Source: an uncultured cyanobacterium (GTDB taxonomy: Bacteria; Cyanobacteriota; Cyanobacteriia; PCC-6307; Cyanobiaceae). Taken from it: 11,887 nt of DNA. The DNA is taken from NCBI GenBank assembly GCA_903831165.1, contig CAIKWV010000597.1, positions 1 to 11,887 of the forward strand, read 5' to 3'. The notes beneath the pieces were generated by a model. The model saw only the letters and a program-made list of their open reading frames with translations, was not told the origin of the DNA and ran no database searches. Positions 1,904-11,887 of this stretch are shown here, one piece after another. The translations under genes were made by a program, and so were the position numbers. Position 1 is the stretch's first letter, and each line of letters begins with the position of its first letter.

Positions 1904-2710
1904 TCAGGGTGCAACCACATATCGATCCCGACCGCGACGCTTCGCCACCAACAAGGCCTCATCAGCACGGCGAAAAGTATCAGCGTAAGTTTCACCAGAA
2001 ACATGTTGGGCCAGTCCAATGCTGGCGGTGATTCCCACCTCGGCGCCATCACAATCGAGAGCGATTAAACGGACAGCCGTCAGCAGCCGCTGGACCACGA
2101 CTTCGGCCTCATGGAGATCAGCGTCGGCAAAAAGTCCAAGAAATTCTTCGCCACCCCATCGGGCACAAAGGTCTTGGTCACGGATACTGGTTTTGAATTT
2201 CTGAGCCAATTCGACCAGCATGCGATCACCGAAATCATGACCATAGGTATCGTTGACTAACTTAAAGTGATCAGCATCCAGAACCACCAAAGAATAGGTT
2301 GATCCATCAGCCAGACTGCGCTCATCGGCTTGGCGGCAACTTTCACTCATCAGCCGACGATTCGCAATCCCTGTCAACAAATCATGGGTGGAAGCCTCAT
2401 GCAGGGCGACATTAAGATCCTTGAGCATCGACTGATAGCGATCAGAGATCCGCAACACTCGCTCTAACAGGCGGATCTGCCGGTCATAACGCCTGGAGAG
2501 CAGACGCACCCGCTCGCGGGCGGCATTCTGATAACGATCGGAAATATTCGTGATGCGTTCAAGTCGAGCCAGCTGCCAGGCAACCGAGCACCAGAGCTGT
2601 TGCAGCACCTCACGCATGGGATGGTCAAGGTATTGCTCGTCAGCCAACATCTCCTGCACCCTTTTCTCGAGGACCTCGTCAAGCTTCTGGGATCCGCGCA
2701 GGAGAGGCAT
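1904..2710 (-). CDS. siaD: SiaD-type diguanylate cyclase (GGDEF), biofilm/aggregation regulator
   Basis: Makes c-di-GMP from two GTP. From the ATG at 2710 it has 268 residues; an in-frame TTG at 2716 overlaps the siaC stop and would add two. Residues 1-108 form a helical, charged stalk typical of SiaD; in P. aeruginosa this N-terminal part is bound by unphosphorylated SiaC, which activates the enzyme. The motif ISDRYQ occurs twice in the stalk, 32 residues apart (56-61 and 88-93). The GGDEF domain spans about 109-268. It has DLLTGIANRR at its entry, the D-A-D-H-F-K-L-V-N-D-T-Y-G-H metal/GTP segment near 145-158, and an active-site GGEEF at 186-190. An RDQD inhibitory I-site lies five residues before it (177-180), so product inhibition is expected. 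It is last gene of the operon, 2 bases after siaC. GC is low (42% in bases 2221-2280). The enzyme should be active. Confidence 0.88.
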   Translation of the reverse strand: MPLLRGSQKLDEVLEKRVQEMLADEQYLDHPMREVLQQLWCSVAWQLARLERITNISDRYQNAARERVRLLSRRYDRQIRLLERVLRISDRYQSMLKDLNVALHEASTHDLLTGIANRRLMSESCRQADERSLADGSTYSLVVLDADHFKLVNDTYGHDFGDRMLVELAQKFKTSIRDQDLCARWGGEEFLGLFADADLHEAEVVVQRLLTAVRLIALDCDGAEVGITASIGLAQHVSGETYADTFRRADEALLVAKRRGRDRYVVAP

Positions 2711-2712
2711 TC

Positions 2713-3108
2713 TCAACGACCCAGAGCACGAATCTCGAAGCTGAAGCTATAGTCCTCCTTGAATTCCTCACCCAACTCCGAGGCGCGCGGGTTGCGGTTG
2801 TCATACAACCAAACCACGCTGACCTGCTTGCCACCATCGCAAGCCTCTTGCAAGAGGTCAAAGATATCAATCATTGCCCTGATACTGCTGGTATTCAGAT
2901 AGCTCAGCTGCAGTTCCACCTCAAGCGATCGCTCTGCCTGGCTGAGGAATTGCTCGGTCCACTCAATGATCTGGGCGAAAAACTCGTAAGTATTCTCGGG
3001 ATAGGACTCACCGATCATCACCAGCTTGCCACTCTGCCAGTCAGCCTCTACACCCGGGCTGAACTGGGAGCTGGGAAGACTGAGATTGTGTTGTTCTACA
3101 GGGGTCAT
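2713..3108 (-). CDS. siaC: SiaC-family regulatory phosphoprotein (DUF1987)
   Basis: Small cytoplasmic switch protein. In P. aeruginosa, SiaC is phosphorylated by SiaB and dephosphorylated by SiaA, and only the unphosphorylated form binds and activates SiaD. The ATG at 3108 gives 131 residues; a TTG at 3117 overlaps the siaB stop and would add three. The diagnostic segments are all present: DWQSGKL, GESYPENTYEFF, then YLNTSSIRAMIDIFDLL, then a VVWLYDNRN strand and an EEFKEDYSF C-terminus. The threonine of LNTSS (T73 from the ATG) corresponds to the known phosphosite Thr68 of P. aeruginosa SiaC. The fold resembles STAS anti-sigma-factor antagonists. It lies 5 bases after siaB and 2 bases before siaD, which suggests translational coupling. 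The family assignment is firm. The partner roles are inferred from the intact four-gene set. Confidence 0.9.
   Translation of the reverse strand: MTPVEQHNLSLPSSQFSPGVEADWQSGKLVMIGESYPENTYEFFAQIIEWTEQFLSQAERSLEVELQLSYLNTSSIRAMIDIFDLLQEACDGGKQVSVVWLYDNRNPRASELGEEFKEDYSFSFEIRALGR
2925..2932. repeat. HIP1 octamer GCGATCGC inside siaC
   Basis: Perfect 8-bp palindrome that is over-represented in many cyanobacterial genomes. Its presence inside siaC supports a cyanobacterial host and some residence time of the operon in such a genome. Confidence 0.8.
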
Positions 3109-3113
3109 GGGCT

Positions 3114-3662
3114 TCAAATGATGGCACGGAGACTGAAAAAGGCCTTACCCTGATCGGCTTCACCCAGATTAGCCTCCAAGGGTTGACTCGATTTACGGGC
3201 GATCTCAATCAGGCCCAAGCCGGCACCCGTGCTGCGATCCGCCTGACGAGGCTGTCGCAACTGCTGCTTGTAAAGCGACTTGAGCTCTGCTTTATCAAGA
3301 TGGGCAAGATTTTCGATACGAGCAAGCAGCGCCTCACCATCAGCCAAATCAATGATATTTCCCGCCGATACGGCATAATGACCACCTTCAACTTCAGCGA
3401 TGACAACCGTGGCCGAAGCATCCTTATCGCCATAGCTCTTGGCAGTGGCATAATGGCGTATGTTTTGGCTCATTTCGATATAAACGCTGAACACATCCAT
3501 CGCCGCGGACTGGCTTGACTGGGTAGATTCAATATGATCCTTGAGAGCAACACCAATTTCGCCAATCAATGTCCTTGATATGGGGCCATTGAAACAAATC
3601 AAAATTCGTTGGCCATTGAAGAAATCTCGCAACGAAGAGAGACTACTCGAAAACATATTCAT
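3114..3662 (-). CDS. siaB: SiaB-family protein kinase (GHKL/anti-sigma-like)
   Basis: 182 residues from the ATG at 3662 (a second ATG lies two codons in, at 3656). SiaB proteins are threonine kinases of the GHKL/RsbW-like fold that phosphorylate SiaC and so turn down the cyclase. Visible motifs are an N-box with E63, Q66-N67 and H70 (EMSQNIRHYA), an AGNII segment near 99-103 in place of the G1 box, and a glycine-rich G2 loop TGAGLGLIEIA at 145-155. The C-terminus ends in a beta strand (AFFSLRAII), as usual for this fold. It starts 15 bases after the siaA stop. A GAGG upstream is too far away (about 13 bases) to be a confident ribosome site. The kinase family is recognised with good confidence and its substrate is inferred from the adjacent siaC. 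Confidence 0.87.
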   Translation of the reverse strand: MNMFSSSLSSLRDFFNGQRILICFNGPISRTLIGEIGVALKDHIESTQSSQSAAMDVFSVYIEMSQNIRHYATAKSYGDKDASATVVIAEVEGGHYAVSAGNIIDLADGEALLARIENLAHLDKAELKSLYKQQLRQPRQADRSTGAGLGLIEIARKSSQPLEANLGEADQGKAFFSLRAII

Positions 3663-3677
3663 CAGAACAACTCGACC

Positions 3678-4916
3678 TCAGTCGAAGCGAAAAGAAAGCA
3701 TGGTGATGTCATCTCGCTGGGGATAGGCGCCTCGGAAATCGGACAGTGCCTGAGCGAACGCCTGCCGCTGCTCAGACAGGGGTTTGCGAGCATGCTCCAA
3801 CAACAGGGCGGTGAAGCGATCGCTGCCAATCGAAAAGCCATGCTCACCTCCCGACTGATCGAGATAGCCGTCTGTGGTCAGATAATAGGTGAAACCAGGC
3901 AGCAATGGCAGTTCTTGGTCGCTGTAGGTGCCAAGCCGGCGCTCACACAACGCACGCGATGCACCGGCCAGACAATGAATCTGGTCACCATCGCTCCAGT
4001 ACAGCGAGATTCGGGCACCAGAGAACTTGAGTGAACGCGTTTCAAAATTAAGGGCCACCAGACCCATATCCATGCTGGTGGCAATCGCCTTGGAAAGACG
4101 ATCATCCATCAGGATACTGCGCATCGCCGCATCAGTGCAGCTGAGGATCGCTGCGGGCGATCCGATCCCCACATCTCGGATCGAACGATCCACACCAGCC
4201 CGCGCCATCATGGTCATCATGGCACCGGGTACACCGTGGCCGGCACAATCAGCAACACCAGCCAGACAACGGCCGGCATCGGCGTGAAAAAGATAATAAT
4301 CACCACCAACAATATCCTTAGGTTGCCAGAGAATGAAGTAATCTTTACCGAAAGCTTCTTTCAGCTGCTTGTCCGGCAAAATAGATCGCTGCAGAACCCC
4401 TGCATAACGAATTGAATCCGCGATCTGACGGTTGGCCTCACGCAGTTGACCATTGGCAGCATCCAGCTCACCATACGCCGTGCGCATATTAGTGAGAACT
4501 GTGTTAAAGCCATGCACCATTCTGTAGAGCTCATCATCACCAGCAACACTCAACAAGTCACTTTCATCACCAGCCTCAATCCGACGAACCTGACGAGAAA
4601 GACTAGCAAGTGGTCGAATGATGCGACTATCAATGATCAAGAAGGACAGCACGGCCAGCAGGGCCAGCAACAAAGTGAGGGCGACAAAGACATAGTCAGC
4701 CGCACTGTGATCGTGACGTTGAAGCAGAGACTGGGTGGAAACAACAATCAAGTAACCAAGCACCAGGCTGTTGACCACCGTGATCACGATGAAGGTGCTC
4801 TGAATCGACAGTTGACCGCGTGAACGTAGAAGTCCACGCCTCAAGCTCCTGATCCCGTTAACCAGGTGTCGACGCTGAAGGGTGGAACGGTCAGAGGCTG
4901 GCTGGCGACTGTTCAT
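3678..4916 (-). CDS. siaA: SiaA-type membrane PP2C/SpoIIE phosphatase with HAMP, lacking a large periplasmic domain
   Basis: Dephosphorylates SiaC and so promotes c-di-GMP synthesis in the known system. From the ATG at 4916 it has 412 residues; a TTG at 4958 would add 14. Residues 1-36 are basic and cytoplasmic. TM1 is about 40-61, followed by only about a dozen outside residues (polar, QSLLQRHDHSAADY), and TM2 is about 74-95. A HAMP linker follows (93-146, with the RPL at its start and the DDELYRM segment), then a coiled connector ending DSIRYAGVLQRSILP. The PPM/SpoIIE phosphatase domain has GGDYY (204-208), ADCAGHGVPGAMM (222-234), TTDG (347-350) and RDDITML (401-407), all metal-site motifs. 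P. aeruginosa SiaA is, from memory, about 660 residues with a large periplasmic region between the TMs, which is missing here. It is first gene of the operon. A HIP1 octamer lies inside it at 3816-3823. Confidence 0.86.
   Translation of the reverse strand: MNSRQPASDRSTLQRRHLVNGIRSLRRGLLRSRGQLSIQSTFIVITVVNSLVLGYLIVVSTQSLLQRHDHSAADYVFVALTLLLALLAVLSFLIIDSRIIRPLASLSRQVRRIEAGDESDLLSVAGDDELYRMVHGFNTVLTNMRTAYGELDAANGQLREANRQIADSIRYAGVLQRSILPDKQLKEAFGKDYFILWQPKDIVGGDYYLFHADAGRCLAGVADCAGHGVPGAMMTMMARAGVDRSIRDVGIGSPAAILSCTDAAMRSILMDDRLSKAIATSMDMGLVALNFETRSLKFSGARISLYWSDGDQIHCLAGASRALCERRLGTYSDQELPLLPGFTYYLTTDGYLDQSGGEHGFSIGSDRFTALLLEHARKPLSEQRQAFAQALSDFRGAYPQRDDITMLSFRFD
3816..3823. repeat. HIP1 octamer GCGATCGC inside siaA
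   Basis: Second perfect HIP1 copy, in the phosphatase domain of siaA. Confidence 0.8.
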
Positions 4917-4984
4917 AGGACACACTTGGATCAATACCGTGGAAGAAACGTCTGTCAATCAACGCGGAGAACCTTCAACCGCTA

Positions 4985-5013: not shown

Positions 5014-5734
5014 GTCAGTCGATCATCATCACGGGCAGTGGTACGGCGCGAAACCCGACACTGGTCAATTGCTGGCGATGTTGAAGCAAGTCGGAAGGCC
5101 GAATCGTAGCGTTGACTTTAGCTGGAGCCTCAAAAATGGGGGGCAACTCAGATCAGGTCTTCAAACAACAGAACATAGCCAGCAACCCTCATCGGGCAAT
5201 AGGCAGCCACTCGGTTCAGCTTCACAACCCAGGTCGGGTTCGCCTGCGATCAAACTGAGAAGCGACCCAGCTCGGCCTTGACTCTGGACGGACACGACGG
5301 CGGCGCAAGCGAAAATCGTTCCGATCCATGGCAGGTCGAAGGGCGGCCCCGGCTCGCGGCTAGCGACTCCAGGAAATCAAGCCAAGGCTCAGAAGCGATG
5401 AGCGCCAAGTCCTGATCCGGCCAGCGGTGCTGGACTCGAGTTCCAAGGAAGCGCCATGGCTGGCGGCAAGATTGGATGAGGCATCGAAAGCCCTCACGCC
5501 AGACCCTCGGCCTCGAACCAGGCCCGGGGAGAGCCCTTGAAGACGGCTCGAAAAGATGCCGGGGTATGGGCTGAAGAGCTTGACCGTCATGCTGCAGCCG
5601 AATGTGAGCCAGCAACGACGGCCGGACTGCAGGGTTCGATTGAAATCACCGGACTGGAGCGCGGGCGCGCCTCCAAGGCCCTGGCCGTGGGAGAATGGTG
5701 CGCGATGCCGCGGCTGAGGCTGTGGGATCGAGGT
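5014..5734. other. Gene-poor region upstream of tRNA-Ser
   Basis: About 720 bases with no recognisable protein gene. The longest frames here (minus strand about 5250-5974, plus strand 5537-5881) are low-complexity in character or run through the tRNA, and show no family motif. A short minus-strand segment near 5370-5450 (reading WPDQDLALIASEPWLDFLESLA) looks mildly protein-like and may be a relic. A possible siaA promoter lies at the left edge. No tRNA promoter could be picked with confidence. Confidence 0.4.
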
Positions 5735-5819
5735 GGAGGGGTGGTCGAGTGGTTGATGGCTCCGGTCTTGAAAACCGGCGAAGGGAAACCTTCCGCGGGT
5801 TCGAATCCCGCCCCCTCCG
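5735..5819 (+). tRNA. tRNA-Ser (anticodon TGA)
   Basis: An 85-nt cloverleaf without encoded CCA. Acceptor arms GGAGGGG (5735-5741) and CCCCTCC (5812-5818) pair fully, followed by discriminator G at 5819. The anticodon stem-loop is CCGGT-CTTGAAA-ACCGG with anticodon TGA, reading UCN serine codons. A long variable arm (GAAGG-GAAA-CCTTC) marks a class II tRNA. The T-arm is GCGGG (5795-5799), loop TTCGAAT, CCCGC (5807-5811). Four T residues follow almost directly. It stands alone between the sia operon and a decayed integrase, and tRNA-Ser genes are common integration sites. Confidence 0.96.
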
Positions 5820-5914
5820 TTTTGACAGGATTCCGAGGCAGACGAGGACGTCCGAGAACCGTTGCAGCGCATGGTCTCTGACTGAATTGACCGTCCTGAA
5901 TGATCCTGAGTCAT

Positions 5915-6050: not shown

Positions 6051-6480
6051 ATGCTGCGCACCAGGCTCAATGACAAGGCGATCCAGGCTCTGCGCCCTGA
6101 ACCGGTCAAGACTGGGACCGAGCATCACGACCGCTCAACACCAGCGCAGGGCAGTAGAGAAGGTCAACCGGAGCTTCATGCAGATCGCCGAGACCTGGTA
6201 TGCGCATCACAGTCCCAGCTGGAGTAGCCGCTACTACCGGGACATGCGCAAGTAGCTGGATCACTTCGTGCTTCCAGCCCTCGGTGATCTGAAGGTCGGG
6301 ACCTCTGGCCGCGACGCTACCGAAATCCGTCTGCTGGCCCTGATCATCGTCAGAGGCGCCAACCAACAGGCCCGACGCTGCAACGATGTGGTGCAGCGCG
6401 TGATCAAGCATGTCGTGGATCTGGACGTACACCAGGACAACCATTGCTGCAGGGATCTGAGTTCAGGCAGCGATCGCCGA
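6051..6480 (+). pseudogene. Decayed tyrosine recombinase (P4-like phage integrase) fragment
   Basis: Remains of a site-specific integrase in at least two frames. Beginning at the ATG at 6051, one frame reads MLRTRLNDKAIQALRPEP, like the arm-binding N-terminus of P4-type integrases (typically LTDKAIKALKP). The frame then shifts between about 6105 and 6165. The next frame reads SFMQIAETWYAHHSPSW, then RYYRDMRK, an in-frame TAG at 6253-6255, then LDHFVLPALGDLKV, RGANQQARRCNDVVQRV and KHVVDLDVHQDN to about 6445. This is the SAM-like core-binding domain. Much of the segment between the two domains is gone and the catalytic domain (R...HxxR...Y) is not found, so the gene is dead. It has the same orientation as tRNA-Ser and begins 231 bases after it, the usual place for an integrase next to its attachment site. 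A HIP1 octamer at 6470-6477 marks the end of recognisable similarity. Confidence 0.72.
6470..6477. repeat. HIP1 octamer GCGATCGC
   Basis: Third perfect HIP1 copy, at the distal end of the integrase relic. Confidence 0.8.
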
Positions 6481-6769: not shown

Positions 6770-7013
6770 CGCCGCAGACTGGCTGGAAGGCGCCCTCACG
6801 ATGCCGTCAGGCCAACGGATTCTCAATCGCCCCCGCTCAGCGGTAGTCGGCCGCCGCCGCCTATGGATGCCTGGTGGCCAGCACCAGCGGAAGCAGCAGG
6901 GCCTGATCGATGCACAGCGGTTCGGCCGAATCGGGCCCCTGATCTCGGGCGATCCCAGGAGGGGTCCTAGCAGTACCGCTGGCAGGCAGACGTCACTGGC
7001 CGCTTAAGGAGAG
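6770..7013. other. Short region without a clear gene
   Basis: Plus-strand frames (to about 7007) look like noise. On the minus strand a 43-codon open stretch near 6870-6990 reads SAEPLCIDQALLLPLVLATRHP before a stop. It looks protein-like but has no start and no recognised family; a relic is possible. Confidence 0.3.
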
Positions 7014-7034
7014 TTGGGGACGATGCAACCCCAA
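7014..7034 (-). terminator. Small hairpin just after the alkylsulfatase stop
   Basis: TTGGGG (7014-7019) pairs with CCCCAA (7029-7034) around a 9-base loop, 2 bases beyond the minus-strand stop at 7037. There is no T-run on the minus-strand side, so termination is only suggested by position. Confidence 0.3.
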
Positions 7035-7036
7035 GC

Positions 7037-8791
7037 TCAGCCCCCTGCTGTGCTGGCCGGCTCAGCCTGGGAGAAGGGATCCGCCTTGGCGCTGGAATCA
7101 GGCTCCTCAATGGGCGCTGCCGTTGAGCGGTCTTGATTGGTCCCCGGCATGATGTCGAAGGATGGCGAGAATTGAATCAATACGTCGCGGAATTGTTGCA
7201 ACAGCTGGCCATCACCCTCCAGCCTTGCGGTGCCTGCAGCAATCAAGGCGAACAAGGTGGTAGAGCCAGCCATCACCAACTCCAGATCGCAGCGGTTGAT
7301 CACAAGCGTGAGGTCAGGGCTCTCGAGTTGGAAGCCCTTGATGTTGGTCAGGGTTGAGTTGTTGAGTTCAACAATGAATTGCTCGCCATTATCTGGTGTC
7401 TGCAGATTCATCGTGAATCGCAGCCCCTTAGCTTTGCTGCTGTCCACCCGAATCGCCAAGAAGTCAAGGAATAGCTCTGTCGACAGGGCTATGACCAAAT
7501 CAGGGTTGACAGGTTGGGCGGCAACTCCACTGGGGAAGCCATTGCGCAGCTCGAAAGCGGCTGCAAGAAAGCTGTTGCGTACACTGGGGCTTTCTTTTTG
7601 ATAACCAATCTGCTCAAAGACGTCAGCAAGCAGATCTTTAGCAGATTGGTTGTCAGGCTCGGCGTAGACAAGCTTGTTGACGATCTCCATCGCTTCCCGG
7701 TATCGACCTTCCTGGTGCAACTCCTTACCTTTGAGCAAGATCTTCTCGGCGCCCCCCATCATCTCGACATACAACGGAGCTGAATCGCCGGGCGAAAGGG
7801 GAATCAATGTTGCCGGATTGGCGTCCCAGTACCCCAGGTAGCGATTGATCACGGCCCGGCTGTTATGCTCCTCCGAACCGTGATAGCTGCGGGCAGCCCA
7901 TTGTTGCTGCAAGTCTTCAGGGAGCTTGTAGACATTATGAATCTCGTTGATCGTCACGCCCTGATTGGCCTGGTGCAGTACTTCATTGTGCAGGTGAGCA
8001 TAGACATCACGCTGGACCCGCATCACTTCCTGAATGCGGGCATTACCCCAGCGTGGCCAGCTATGCGAAGCAAACATCACCTCCGCCTCCTGTCCAAACA
8101 GATAGAGAGCTTCGCTGATCTTCTTGGACCACTCCAAGGCATCGCGAACCAGGGCACCGCGAAGGGTGTAGATGTTGTGGATCGTGCCGCAGATATTCTC
8201 GGCAGCCCAGAAGGCCTTCCAATCCGGGAAATAGGTGTTCATCTCCGCCGGTGCCTCGGTACCTGGGGTGTTCTGAAACACCATCCGGACACCATCGATC
8301 ACAATCTCTTCCAGGTCCTTTTCGATGGTCCGATTGGGCTCGATCAGCCCGACTCTGCCTGAGGCTGCGTTCTTGCCGATCGATTGATCGACGTGGCCAA
8401 AGGGACTGCGCGGCAATAGGAGTCCATATTGGAAGAAGGCACGCCGGTTCATGGCATTGCCGGAGTAGACATTCTCGGCAACGGCATGTTTCATGAAGCC
8501 GACGGGGGCGAGCAGCTGCACCCTGCCGCTTTCGACATCAGCCGGATCCACCACCCCTCGAATGCCGCCAAAGTGATCCACATGGCTATGGGAATAAATC
8601 ACGGCCACAACCGGCCGCCGGCCAAGGTGTTCATTGACCAATTCGAGAGCGGCCTGGGACGTTTCCTTGCAGGTGAGAACATCATAGAGAATCCAGCCTG
8701 TATCCCCCTTGATAATGGTCATATTGGCCAGATCAAACCCCCGCACCTGATAGATCTTGCCAGGCAGAACTTCATATAAGCCATAAGCCAT
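7037..8791 (-). CDS. Alkylsulfatase (SdsA1/BDS1 type), main part, out of frame with its N-terminus
   Basis: 584 residues from an ATG at 8791 that lies inside a heptamer repeat. Type III alkylsulfatases hydrolyse alkyl sulfates such as SDS to alcohol and sulfate with two zinc ions. The metal site is complete: H68, H70, D72, H73 (SHSHVDHFGG), E179 (TPGTEAPAEM), E198 (WAAEN) and H243 (FASHSWPRWGN). These spacings equal those I recall for P. aeruginosa SdsA1 (H169, H171, D173, H174, E280, E299, H344). The usual segments GFMKHAVAENVYSGNAM and HNIYTLRGALVRDAL are present. A helical dimerisation domain follows (about 275-425), then an SCP2-like C-terminal domain (about 440-550) and a polar tail. The frame lacks the first ~105 residues of the enzyme, which lie in the upstream overlapping frame. 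Whether re-initiation at 8791 makes a stable protein is unknown; I expect loss of function unless the repeat slips back. Confidence 0.85.
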   Translation of the reverse strand: MAYGLYEVLPGKIYQVRGFDLANMTIIKGDTGWILYDVLTCKETSQAALELVNEHLGRRPVVAVIYSHSHVDHFGGIRGVVDPADVESGRVQLLAPVGFMKHAVAENVYSGNAMNRRAFFQYGLLLPRSPFGHVDQSIGKNAASGRVGLIEPNRTIEKDLEEIVIDGVRMVFQNTPGTEAPAEMNTYFPDWKAFWAAENICGTIHNIYTLRGALVRDALEWSKKISEALYLFGQEAEVMFASHSWPRWGNARIQEVMRVQRDVYAHLHNEVLHQANQGVTINEIHNVYKLPEDLQQQWAARSYHGSEEHNSRAVINRYLGYWDANPATLIPLSPGDSAPLYVEMMGGAEKILLKGKELHQEGRYREAMEIVNKLVYAEPDNQSAKDLLADVFEQIGYQKESPSVRNSFLAAAFELRNGFPSGVAAQPVNPDLVIALSTELFLDFLAIRVDSSKAKGLRFTMNLQTPDNGEQFIVELNNSTLTNIKGFQLESPDLTLVINRCDLELVMAGSTTLFALIAAGTARLEGDGQLLQQFRDVLIQFSPSFDIMPGTNQDRSTAAPIEEPDSSAKADPFSQAEPASTAGG

Positions 8792-9104
8792 AAGCCATAT
8801 TCAAGATGGCTTGGCGCTGCTGAGAGGGGTGAATCGTGTCAAATACACTATCGAAGCCTTTGAGCAGAAAGTCATAGCTGCCCATGTCCCACGCCACATG
8901 ACCGTCCTCGGCCATGATCTGCATGTAAGCAGGAGCAGCGATAAAGCCTTGCTTGGATTCTTCGAAATCGCGCTCGTCTTCGAATGGCAGCTGTTGGCGA
9001 AACAGATTTTGATGATCGATAGTAAACCTGGATGCCGGTTTGCCTTTAGCGTCAAAATGCTGATTGTTAAGTGGCGACGACGCTGCCTGATTCGATTCTT
9101 CCAT
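8772..9104 (-). CDS. Alkylsulfatase, N-terminal part, cut off by repeat-caused frameshift
   Basis: From the ATG at 9104 this frame has 110 residues; a GTG at 9185 would add 27 that do not look family-like. It contains the conserved start of type III alkylsulfatases: QLPFEDERDFEESKQGFIAA, then a V-W-D segment (HVAWDMGSYDFLL), then DTIHPSQQRQAILNMAYG. It then runs into WLI and a TGA at 8772-8774 because of an extra 7-bp unit. With two units instead of three it would read ILNMAYGLYEVLPGKIYQV straight into the next frame, giving about 686 residues in all. No signal peptide is seen, unlike the exported Pseudomonas enzymes, so the product would be cytoplasmic. It overlaps the downstream frame by 20 bases. 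Confidence 0.75.
   Translation of the reverse strand: MEESNQAASSPLNNQHFDAKGKPASRFTIDHQNLFRQQLPFEDERDFEESKQGFIAAPAYMQIMAEDGHVAWDMGSYDFLLKGFDSVFDTIHPSQQRQAILNMAYGLWLI
8776..8799. repeat. Heptanucleotide tandem repeat (3.4 copies) inside the alkylsulfatase gene
   Basis: On the plus strand, unit AGCCATA occurs three times without change (8779-8799), preceded by a partial ATA (8776-8778). On the coding strand this is TATGGCT x3. Because 7 is not a multiple of 3, each gain or loss of a unit shifts the frame. Two copies give the family-like reading, three copies the broken one. Confidence 0.95.
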
Positions 9105-9455
9105 GAGCGTGAGTGGGATTAGTTCTGGCAAGCCTAGTCGGTCCGGCCCAGCTCTGGCACTGGCACTGCCATGGGCAGGCGCCACTTGTCCAGAGCCGAT
9201 AGCTTTACGATGGCAATCTCAAGATCTGCCGTTTAGGAGATGATGACGTCAGGCTCCCTGGCATAACCATCCATTCAGCCCTACATTAATTGATCAATCC
9301 TGTCGAGGCTCGAATCTCTGTGACTGATTGGAACCGGGCAGTCGATGACATTGTGTCATGTGCTCATGATGCGGGGCCGCCTGATCAAACCGTCTAGGTC
9401 GGATGCCGATGCTGGTCTGCGGGTGTAAGGATTCGGGAATCTCGCCGCACTGCTG
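9105..9455. promoter_or_regulatory. Divergent control region between alkylsulfatase and outer-membrane channel genes
   Basis: 351 bases between divergent starts. It contains the palindromes TGACGTCA (9244-9251) and ATTGATCAAT (9289-9298) and a stronger inverted repeat at 9345-9359 listed separately. The part near 9145-9180 has a short TGGCAC direct repeat. I could not fix -10/-35 boxes for either gene with confidence. Confidence 0.45.
9345..9359. promoter_or_regulatory. Perfect 6+3+6 inverted repeat, candidate operator
   Basis: ATGACA-TTG-TGTCAT is a perfect inverted repeat with a 3-base spacer, 97 bases before the beta-barrel gene start and about 240 before the sulfatase start. Its size and symmetry fit a dimeric transcription factor. 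The regulator is not in the window. Confidence 0.4.
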
Positions 9456-10478
9456 ATGGCTCTACTGCCACATCTTCGCTGGTTGCTGACTGGATTGCTA
9501 GCCATCGGGCATGGGTCCGTCCTGGCAAGGGCGGACGCCGCTTCGGCTGGATCTGCAGCTCAGCCAGGATTCAACAGGAGCGCCGTGACACTGGCGGAGG
9601 CCTTGACCCAGGGGGCTGGCCAGAGCGCCCCATCTGGCACGGCCAACAAAGAATCGGCCACTGATTCTGACTCTCAGCCCGTTCTCGAACAAGAAGCACG
9701 GGAAGGAAATCGTGAAGCCCTGGCGAAGGAGGCTCAGAACCCCATTGCCAATCTGATCAGCTTTCCGATTCAGTGGAACGCGACTCCGGCCAGTCAATGG
9801 GCTCCGCGGTCGATTGATCCATCTGCAGAAGCCAACCGGACCCTCAACGTCTGGAACGTTCAGCCTGTCGTTCCATTCAACCTGAATAAGGATTTTCTTC
9901 TGATCAGCCGCACCATTGTTCCGGTCATTCAAAGACCCTTAACAGGCAATACTGACATTATCGGCATTGGGGACATCAGTCCCAGCTTGTTTCTTGTGCC
10001 ACGCACCAACAGCCGCCTCCAGCTTGGATTCGGTCCAACCCTGGTGATACCCTCAGCAACCGATGTGCGGCTGAGCAGTCAACGCTGGAGCGCCGGCCCT
10101 GCAGCGGTAGCTGTTTATACATCAGGTCCGCTGGTGGCGGGCATGCTGGCTAACAATATCTGGTCGTTTGCTGGCGAGGGCGGGCGCAAGATCAACTCCA
10201 TGCTCATCCAACCTTTCATCAACTTCAACCTTGCCAATGGCTGGTATCTCGCCAGTTCCCCGATCATCACCGCTGACTGGACTGCCCATCAAGGCAGGGG
10301 CTGGACCGTGCCGATTGGCGGTGGATTCGGGAGGATCTTCCGTCTCGGTAGCCAGCCCTTCAATGCTTCCTTTCAGGCATTTTGGAATGTGACGCGACCC
10401 GAGGTAGTCGGCGACAGGCTTCTCGGACCTGTCACCCTCCGCCTGCAGATTCAGGCATTGTTCCCAACCGGCGGCTAG
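9456..10478 (+). CDS. Outer-membrane beta-barrel protein, transporter/channel-like (phenol-degradation MetA-like family)
   Basis: 340 residues from the ATG at 9456; an in-frame stop lies 30 bases upstream, so this is the earliest ATG. Residues 1-27 form a signal peptide (basic, then LLTGLLAIGHGSVLA, then ADA). A polar low-complexity linker follows to about 90. From AQNPIANLISFPIQWN (about 92-107) onward it shows alternating beta strands of a barrel: LNVWNVQPVVPFNL, LISRTIVPVIQRPL, GIGDISPSLFLVP, LQLGFGPTLVIPSATD, WSAGPAAVAVYTSGPLVAGMLANNIWSFAG, ANGWYLASSPIITADW, WTVPIGGGFGRIF and LQIQALFPTGG at the end. These match cyanobacterial and proteobacterial outer-membrane proteins annotated as neuromedin-U-like or MetA-pathway transporters; their substrates are mostly unknown. 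It is divergent from the alkylsulfatase and followed by a BASS carrier gene, which suggests passage of an organic anion or amphiphile. Confidence 0.8.
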   Translation: MALLPHLRWLLTGLLAIGHGSVLARADAASAGSAAQPGFNRSAVTLAEALTQGAGQSAPSGTANKESATDSDSQPVLEQEAREGNREALAKEAQNPIANLISFPIQWNATPASQWAPRSIDPSAEANRTLNVWNVQPVVPFNLNKDFLLISRTIVPVIQRPLTGNTDIIGIGDISPSLFLVPRTNSRLQLGFGPTLVIPSATDVRLSSQRWSAGPAAVAVYTSGPLVAGMLANNIWSFAGEGGRKINSMLIQPFINFNLANGWYLASSPIITADWTAHQGRGWTVPIGGGFGRIFRLGSQPFNASFQAFWNVTRPEVVGDRLLGPVTLRLQIQALFPTGG

Positions 10479-10552
10479 CAACCTGCCGAGCACTCAGGCT
10501 CTCCCAGCTCCAGCATGACTTCGACACTGATCCAACTGAGGATGTAATTCCT

Positions 10553-11398
10553 ATGGCCATCTTGACGTTGACGCTGCTCGCCGGCGTGCTGCTGCTGGTG
10601 GTGGCCATCGGCATCGGGGCTCGCCCGGGGTGGGCGTTGTTGCTGCTGCGCAGGCCATGGCTGGTGCTGCGCGCCATGGGTGCGATGTATGTGGCCATGC
10701 CTGCTTTCGTGTTGCTGCTGGTGTGGATACTGCCCCTGCAAAAACCAGTCAGTGCCGCGCTTCTGAGCCTGGCGATTTCGCCCGTGCTTCCTCCCTGGGG
10801 CCGAAAAGCTGCTGTGGTCGGCGGCCGCAGCGACGACGTCATCGGTCTGCAGCTCCTGTCCTCCGGACTTGCCCTGCTGGTGATCCCGTTGATGCTCTGG
10901 CTGGTCGAGCACGTCTTCAGTGTCCAGACCACTCTCGATCCGCTGGCCGTGGAGCTGGTGCTGCTCGTCACGGTGGCGGCGCCTCTGGCTCTCGGCATGG
11001 GCACCGCCCGCTGGGCTCCGCAAGCTGCGCCGCGGCTGGCTGCTGTTGCTGAGCGGGTAGGAGGCGTGCTCCTGCTGCTTGGCGGCGTGCTGCTGATCGT
11101 GCTGCGTGGCCCCGCGATTCTGGGCGTGATCGGACAGGGCACGCTGGGCGCCATCACTGCTGTGGTGATCGCCGGCTTGCTGATCGGGCATGGGCTGGGC
11201 GGACCAGATCCCCGCATGCGAGGAGTTCTGGCATCGGCCACGATCTACCGGCACCCAGCCATCGCTTTGATTCTGGCCTCGGGTTCGGGAATGCAACCTG
11301 AGGACGGCGTGATTGGCACAGTTCTGCTCTACATGCTGGTCTCCCTGTTGCTCTCGATGCCCTACGAGCGCTGGCGGCGAAGGGTGATCGGAGCCTGA
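10553..11398 (+). CDS. BASS/SBF-family transporter (bile acid:sodium symporter-like)
   Basis: 281 residues from the ATG at 10553. The frame is open further upstream to 10382, but that would overlap the beta-barrel gene and the added residues are not hydrophobic. A GAGG lies at 10538-10541, 11 bases before the ATG. The protein is highly hydrophobic with about nine membrane segments: 3-22, 32-53 (after the RRPW loop), 57-75, 99-116, 130-150, 165-187, 190-215, 230-245 and 250-270, roughly. Family-like features are the LAISPVLPPWGRKAAVVGG loop after the third segment and ATIYRHPAIALILA, like the ATAGRN.ALAL segment of BASS carriers. These carry organic anions with sodium across the inner membrane. 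It starts 74 bases after the beta-barrel gene on the same strand, so co-transcription is likely. Substrate unknown. Confidence 0.75.
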   Translation: MAILTLTLLAGVLLLVVAIGIGARPGWALLLLRRPWLVLRAMGAMYVAMPAFVLLLVWILPLQKPVSAALLSLAISPVLPPWGRKAAVVGGRSDDVIGLQLLSSGLALLVIPLMLWLVEHVFSVQTTLDPLAVELVLLVTVAAPLALGMGTARWAPQAAPRLAAVAERVGGVLLLLGGVLLIVLRGPAILGVIGQGTLGAITAVVIAGLLIGHGLGGPDPRMRGVLASATIYRHPAIALILASGSGMQPEDGVIGTVLLYMLVSLLLSMPYERWRRRVIGA

Positions 11399-11887
11399 TG
11401 AACAAATCTGTGCGTCAAGTCGGTCTATGGCTTGCTCGTCCAGCGCTGAATTGATGCATCCAGCGACAGCGTGACGATGGCTCGACAGCGCCCCATGCTC
11501 CAATGGCGAGCCAGGCCCGACCCTTGCCGCGGCGGGGATCCGGAGGGCGGCCTGCGGACCCGGCTGTGCCACCCGAGGACCATCAAGCCGGAACCTCCCC
11601 TTAGCAGGGGCTATGCCCAGATGAAGCCGCCGCCAGGCTCCGGGGCCCGTTCGTCGTCACAGCCTCAGCCGCTCTGGATGTGCAGCGTGAGGGATTCAGA
11701 GCTCGCTATCCGGTGTCAACGACGTCATCGCCATCGCCGTTGGCACCGGGCATTGCTCTTCAGATCGACTGGGGATGAACTCTGTTGAATCCTAAAAAAG
11801 ATCCCCGCTCAGCAACCGCCAAGCGGCGGAAGCGCTGGACTCGTCAGGATTGACTCAAGCAAGCCGCCGTAGTTGGAGAAGTTTTAC
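11399..11887. other. Region without an intact gene; weak relics
   Basis: About 490 bases after the BASS gene with no convincing gene. Plus strand 11691-11795 reads LSGVNDVIAIAVGTGHC, resembling one RCC1-type repeat (usually VVAIAAGxxHxLAL), then loses similarity. Plus strand 11785-11853 reads MNPKKDPRSATAKRRKRW to a TGA, then LKQAAVVGEVL to the window end, possibly the start of a gene broken by a stop or continuing outside. CCCCTTAGCAGGGG near 11597-11610 could form a 4-bp hairpin but has no T-run. Confidence 0.3.

Follow-up and report, generated by a model that had tools for sequence, protein, structure and literature searches.

A gene for an alkylsulfatase, an enzyme that degrades detergents, in the window, by which we mean the whole 11,887-base contig of an uncultured picocyanobacterium of the family Cyanobiaceae that was analysed here, is broken by the expansion of a seven-base tandem repeat and is otherwise well kept. 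We assign a probability of about 70% to the reading that a chance two-copy heptamer gained one unit, leaving a recent loss-of-function allele of a gene carried as dispensable cargo of a tRNA-Ser island. An earlier, sequence-only reading of this DNA had also described a well-conserved alkylsulfatase broken by repeat expansion, and on this point the tract, the homologues, and the low dN/dS all agree with it.

Within the window, Tandem Repeats Finder places an array of period 7, with 3.4 copies and a 100% match, at 8776-8799; its unit is ATAAGCC, or TATGGCT on the coding (minus) strand, where the tract reads (TATGGCT)x3 followed by TATA. The gene is present as two overlapping minus-strand frames, and the break between them coincides with the three exact seven-base copies. 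The N-terminal piece (8772-9104, within a listed frame of 8772-9185) most likely starts at the ATG at 9104, which corresponds to the ATG of the intact sister gene described below, and it ends in ...ILNMAYGLWLI at a TGA at 8774-8772. The C-terminal piece, 584 residues long (7037-8791), opens with MAYGLYEVLPGKIYQV at an ATG that lies inside the repeat at 8791, and it overlaps the upstream stop. The two frames share 29 bases, and the interval 8772-8800 is wider than the array as it also takes in the stop and this overlap.

The 584-residue frame has the domains of a type III (SdsA1-type, BDS1) alkylsulfatase, namely a metallo-beta-lactamase domain (PF00753), an alkyl sulfatase dimerisation domain (PF14863), and an SCP2-like alkyl sulfatase C-terminal domain (PF14864), with PF02036 just over its cut-off. 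All three are shared with Pseudomonas aeruginosa SdsA1 (2cfu), the closest solved relative of this piece (E 1.1e-193), which aligns from chain residue 104 on. The motifs HSHVDH (68), PAEMN (181), AENICG (197), and HSWPRW (243) all lie in this frame and align with SdsA1. The metal-site motifs are preserved downstream of the break, and seven residues within them presumably bind the metal. Unlike SdsA1-type alkylsulfatases, the window gene lies in two frames, so its product is probably inactive; a single open frame of about 650-700 residues, split here at 8772-8800, is found in four related loci (L002, L003, L004, and L008). The gene is the only alkylsulfatase match in its own genome, which is 64% complete.

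The sister gene is that of Synechococcus sp. GreenBA-s, whose locus (L008) is 91.3% identical to the window in DNA over 4,540 bases, carries two copies of the heptamer, and encodes an open frame of 686 residues. In this natural allele two copies go with one uninterrupted frame, and two copies are probably the older state. The protein P0001 (96% identical, 686 residues) reads through the repeat site, as do all of P0001 to P0006. Among the best 120 of 7,997 scored homologues, 116 read straight across the site, and the other four start at or after it; the peptide there is NMAYGLYEV in 112 of the 120, NTAYGLYEV in two, and NMGYGLYEV in two.

At the DNA level the repeat is far less widespread than the peptide. 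The site is present in 82 of the 87 loci that we compared, a set in which L001 stands for the window and the pairs L002/L013 and L003/L015 each represent one contig; two exact heptamers occur only in the window and in L008. Elsewhere among the 82, synonymous codons interrupt the heptamer copies, and the tract is not maintained across orthologues. Since the peptide is conserved and its codons vary, the tract looks like a codon-choice by-product of one small clade and not like a repeat that is kept. A search for the same break elsewhere covered 120 listed of 146 N-terminal hits, in which fewer than 40 residues follow the motif in 38, at least 40 follow in 58, and the motif is not shown in 24. 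None of the 38 short fragments has the out-of-frame ending of the window; identity to the closest fragment is 78%. Three short metagenomic alkylsulfatase fragments (P0183, P0195, and P0211) end a few residues from the MAYGLY motif, at contig ends or other breaks.

Both pieces still bear the mark of purifying selection. Compared with L008, the C-terminal piece has a dS of 0.209 and a dN of 0.017 (dN/dS about 0.08), and the N-terminal piece a dS of 0.327 and a dN of 0.047 (dN/dS about 0.14). When amino-acid changes were polarised at positions where the outgroups P0002 and P0003 agree, nine were derived in the window and ten in L008, with ten left unassigned. Neither the polarised changes nor the dN/dS against L008 gave any sign of accelerated or relaxed evolution of the window allele. 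As purifying selection is still visible and relaxation is not, the break is recent relative to the split between the window and L008, in keeping with the age proposed for it from the sequence alone.

To place the tract against its genomic background, we surveyed the 296,989 bases of its genome that could be read, made up of the window and 46 of 79 contigs (the remaining 33 consist of N and do not contribute). The survey returned 29 heptamer tracts of at least two copies and one of at least three, which is the window's. In thirty simulations under an order-3 Markov model, heptamer tracts of at least two copies averaged 39.9 and none had three, and GreenBA-s has 111 tracts of at least two copies in 1,161,807 bases, one of them with at least three. 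From these counts, two-copy heptamers are no commoner than the background predicts, and the three-copy tract exceeds chance and is rare but not unique. Other units reach three copies in the own-genome survey as well (nine tetramers, one pentamer, and one octamer). In GreenBA-s, contig L135 holds 3.7 copies of the heptamer GCCCTAA at 11284-11309 and 3.4 copies of the octamer TCAGAGCT at 14688-14714.

The broken gene lies beside a probable integration site. A tRNA-Ser (TGA) gene, the likely target, occupies 5734-5820 on the plus strand, and the remnant of a tyrosine integrase of phage type follows at 6066-6453 on the same strand, with residues 2-24 in one frame and residues 80-193 in another that contains an internal stop. 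No match to the catalytic part of an integrase was found at the remnant. Taken alone, the remnant piece reaches Phage_int_M in Pfam only below the cut-off (E 0.049), matches no phage record, and gave just two chance-level hits in the PDB (E 0.91 and 1); a full-length homologue of 426 residues (L231) has Arm-DNA-bind_3, Phage_int_M, and Phage_integrase domains. Integrase homologues occur in seven of 42 genomes of the genus, the window's own included, and full-length ones lie near tRNA-Ser(TGA) in three of the five loci read, which suggests that this tRNA gene is an integration hotspot in the genus. The window resembles tRNA-borne islands with a phage-type tyrosine integrase, in that its tRNA adjoins an integrase of the type found there in relatives, present as a remnant only. 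Unlike such islands, its integrase is dead, and no att repeat or far end was found: no word of at least 11 bases from the tRNA recurs in the window or L008, and the contig may stop short of the far end.

The alkylsulfatase belongs to a block (6895-11431) that GreenBA-s shares at 91.3% identity but carries in a different genomic place. In GreenBA-s, one contig (L111) holds the ribonucleotide reductase, sia genes, and tRNA-Ser in the order of the window, and the alkylsulfatase block occupies a separate contig (L008); the rest of L111 has no match over 500 bases to the block. The edge of the block in L008 adjoins what reads, by eye, as an IS3-like transposase. Across the window's genome and GreenBA-s, 35 alignments of more than 500 bases, the window included, average 81.8% identity, and the ribonucleotide reductase that neighbours the block is 86.7% identical, although an 883-base stretch of a further contig (L155) is, at 92.9%, as close as the block. 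In a sample that takes in part of both genomes, this pattern fits lateral movement of the block. A plasmid origin was considered and set aside, as no plasmid record covers 80% of the block: the largest coverage among 31 matching records is 36%, at 67.1% identity, and the nine that match at 80-90% identity are not among the best 20 of the 31. A phage origin fared no better, with one matching phage record, at 4%. Within the block, a plus-strand frame of 340 residues at 9456-10478 has no Pfam match, and a similar stretch lies near the alkylsulfatase in L002 and L003, arranged differently.

Alkylsulfatases are scarce in the genus, with matches in five of 42 genomes: the window's own, those of L002, L003, and L004 (one open frame each), and that of another species of the genus (G026). 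The last has a remnant (L005/L007, G026:C5) with three stops, two TAG and one TAA. On the minus strand of the window, at 1904-4958, GGDEF, SiaC (PF09345), DUF6272, and HAMP-SpoIIE genes stand in a row as a siaABCD-like operon, some 2 kb away from the alkylsulfatase. In P. aeruginosa, aggregation induced by SDS is under the control of SiaA/D (PMC4768041), and we considered whether the operon and the alkylsulfatase form a joint SDS response. We rejected this pairing: in GreenBA-s the sia genes with tRNA-Ser and the alkylsulfatase block are on separate contigs, and in the genus SiaC occurs in 19 of 42 genomes and the alkylsulfatase in five of 42, both together in the window's own genome only.

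Our results raise the question of whether the heptamer might be a switch, as the sequence-only reading had proposed in calling the locus phase-variable, with copy number shifting often and reversibly and the frame turning the alkylsulfatase on and off. The unit of seven is indivisible by three and lies in coding sequence near the 5' end, and both pieces are otherwise intact and under purifying selection; such a non-triplet unit in the 5' coding part resembles known switch loci and is a counterpoint to our preferred explanation. The Escherichia coli K1 gene neuO is a parallel, with a tandem heptamer (AAGACTC) in its 5' coding region whose copy number sets the frame; alleles with as few as three units exist, in a range of 3 to 53 units with 20 the commonest in 64 genomes (PMC13001214). 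In Haemophilus influenzae, heptamer tracts are called from three units, a threshold that the window barely reaches at 3.4 copies, and the hmw promoter tracts of that species hold 13-38 copies, according to PMC2651432; the hmw tracts lie upstream of genes, whereas the window's tract is coding. Unlike neuO and hmw, whose tracts as described in these papers are mostly longer, the window has three copies, its sister two, and the tract is not kept in relatives. A single length state is known in the window's lineage, the other being in a lineage 91% identical; the exact two-copy tract is missing beyond L008 among the 82 loci with the site, and the conserved peptide MAYGLYEV accounts for the tract. 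Moreover, our survey of 297 kb, or roughly one tenth of the genome, shows no other heptamer of at least three copies, and the gene adjoins a dead integrase and is absent from most genomes of the genus searched. We therefore do not uphold phase variation, with a tract of minimum length, derived from a peptide, not kept beyond the sister, and with no second length state seen in the lineage, and regard it as quite unlikely. The more specific idea, a slipped-strand switch of a surfactant sulfatase on a tRNA-Ser island with two copies ON and three OFF, appears very unlikely. To our knowledge, no catabolic enzyme of this kind is phase-variable in cyanobacteria, and a literature search judged by titles and abstract openings found none.

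The organism might also carry two copies and an intact gene, with the third added by an assembly or local consensus error. The assembly is fragmentary (640 contigs, 64% complete), and the gene is well conserved apart from the break, but frame errors do not look rife, and sequencing reads are usually much longer than the 24 bases of the array. In a control of 70 gene matches to GreenBA-s, seven of them in the window, five were spread over more than one frame, and the alkylsulfatase was the only clear split gene. In L221 the reference frame looks off-frame, and another long frame is open; L229 appears twice, once with two stretches that align to the same part of the reference and once with a frame switch ahead of the likely start; and L212 probably reflects an off-frame reference. 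A generally error-ridden assembly is thus improbable, although a local error is possible, and overall we consider this explanation unlikely. A working enzyme made despite the break, by re-initiation at the ATG at 8791 or by ribosomal frameshifting that joins the frames, is highly improbable. That ATG does overlap the upstream stop, as had been pointed out, and the metal-site motifs are all downstream, but a shortened re-initiation product would start with no visible ribosome-binding site and drop about 100 residues. Matches to a Shine-Dalgarno sequence ahead of 8791 do not exceed 3 nt, which is weak evidence since the same holds ahead of 9104, and by eye the 29-nt overlap holds no slippery heptamer. 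The N-terminal stretch that re-initiation would lose aligns, in the intact sister L008, with all six solved relatives; the alignment begins at residue 21 for five of them and at residue 31 for the sixth. It also falls within the catalytic domain of SdsAP, which its authors define as residues 42-401 (PMC5426288). As the downstream frame lacks these roughly 100 aligned residues, alkylsulfatase activity has presumably been lost in the window allele.

Recent loss of function remains the explanation that we favour. Within a conserved coding stretch, the codons GCT TAT GGC TTA for part of the peptide MAYGLYEV would have formed a two-copy heptamer fortuitously, to which slippage or tandem duplication may have added one unit in the window's lineage. 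The additional seven bases shift the frame, so that translation ends after about 110 residues, and the SdsA1-type alkylsulfatase would thereby have recently lost its function. It was probably dispensable, the cargo of a tRNA-Ser(TGA) island that may have entered as one block and whose integrase is already dead. Were copy number found to vary within populations, it would mean that free-living picocyanobacteria subject a catabolic enzyme to contingency switching, which would be unexpected. As favoured here, it would stand as a clear and recent example of a laterally moving catabolic gene lost through one small slippage event.
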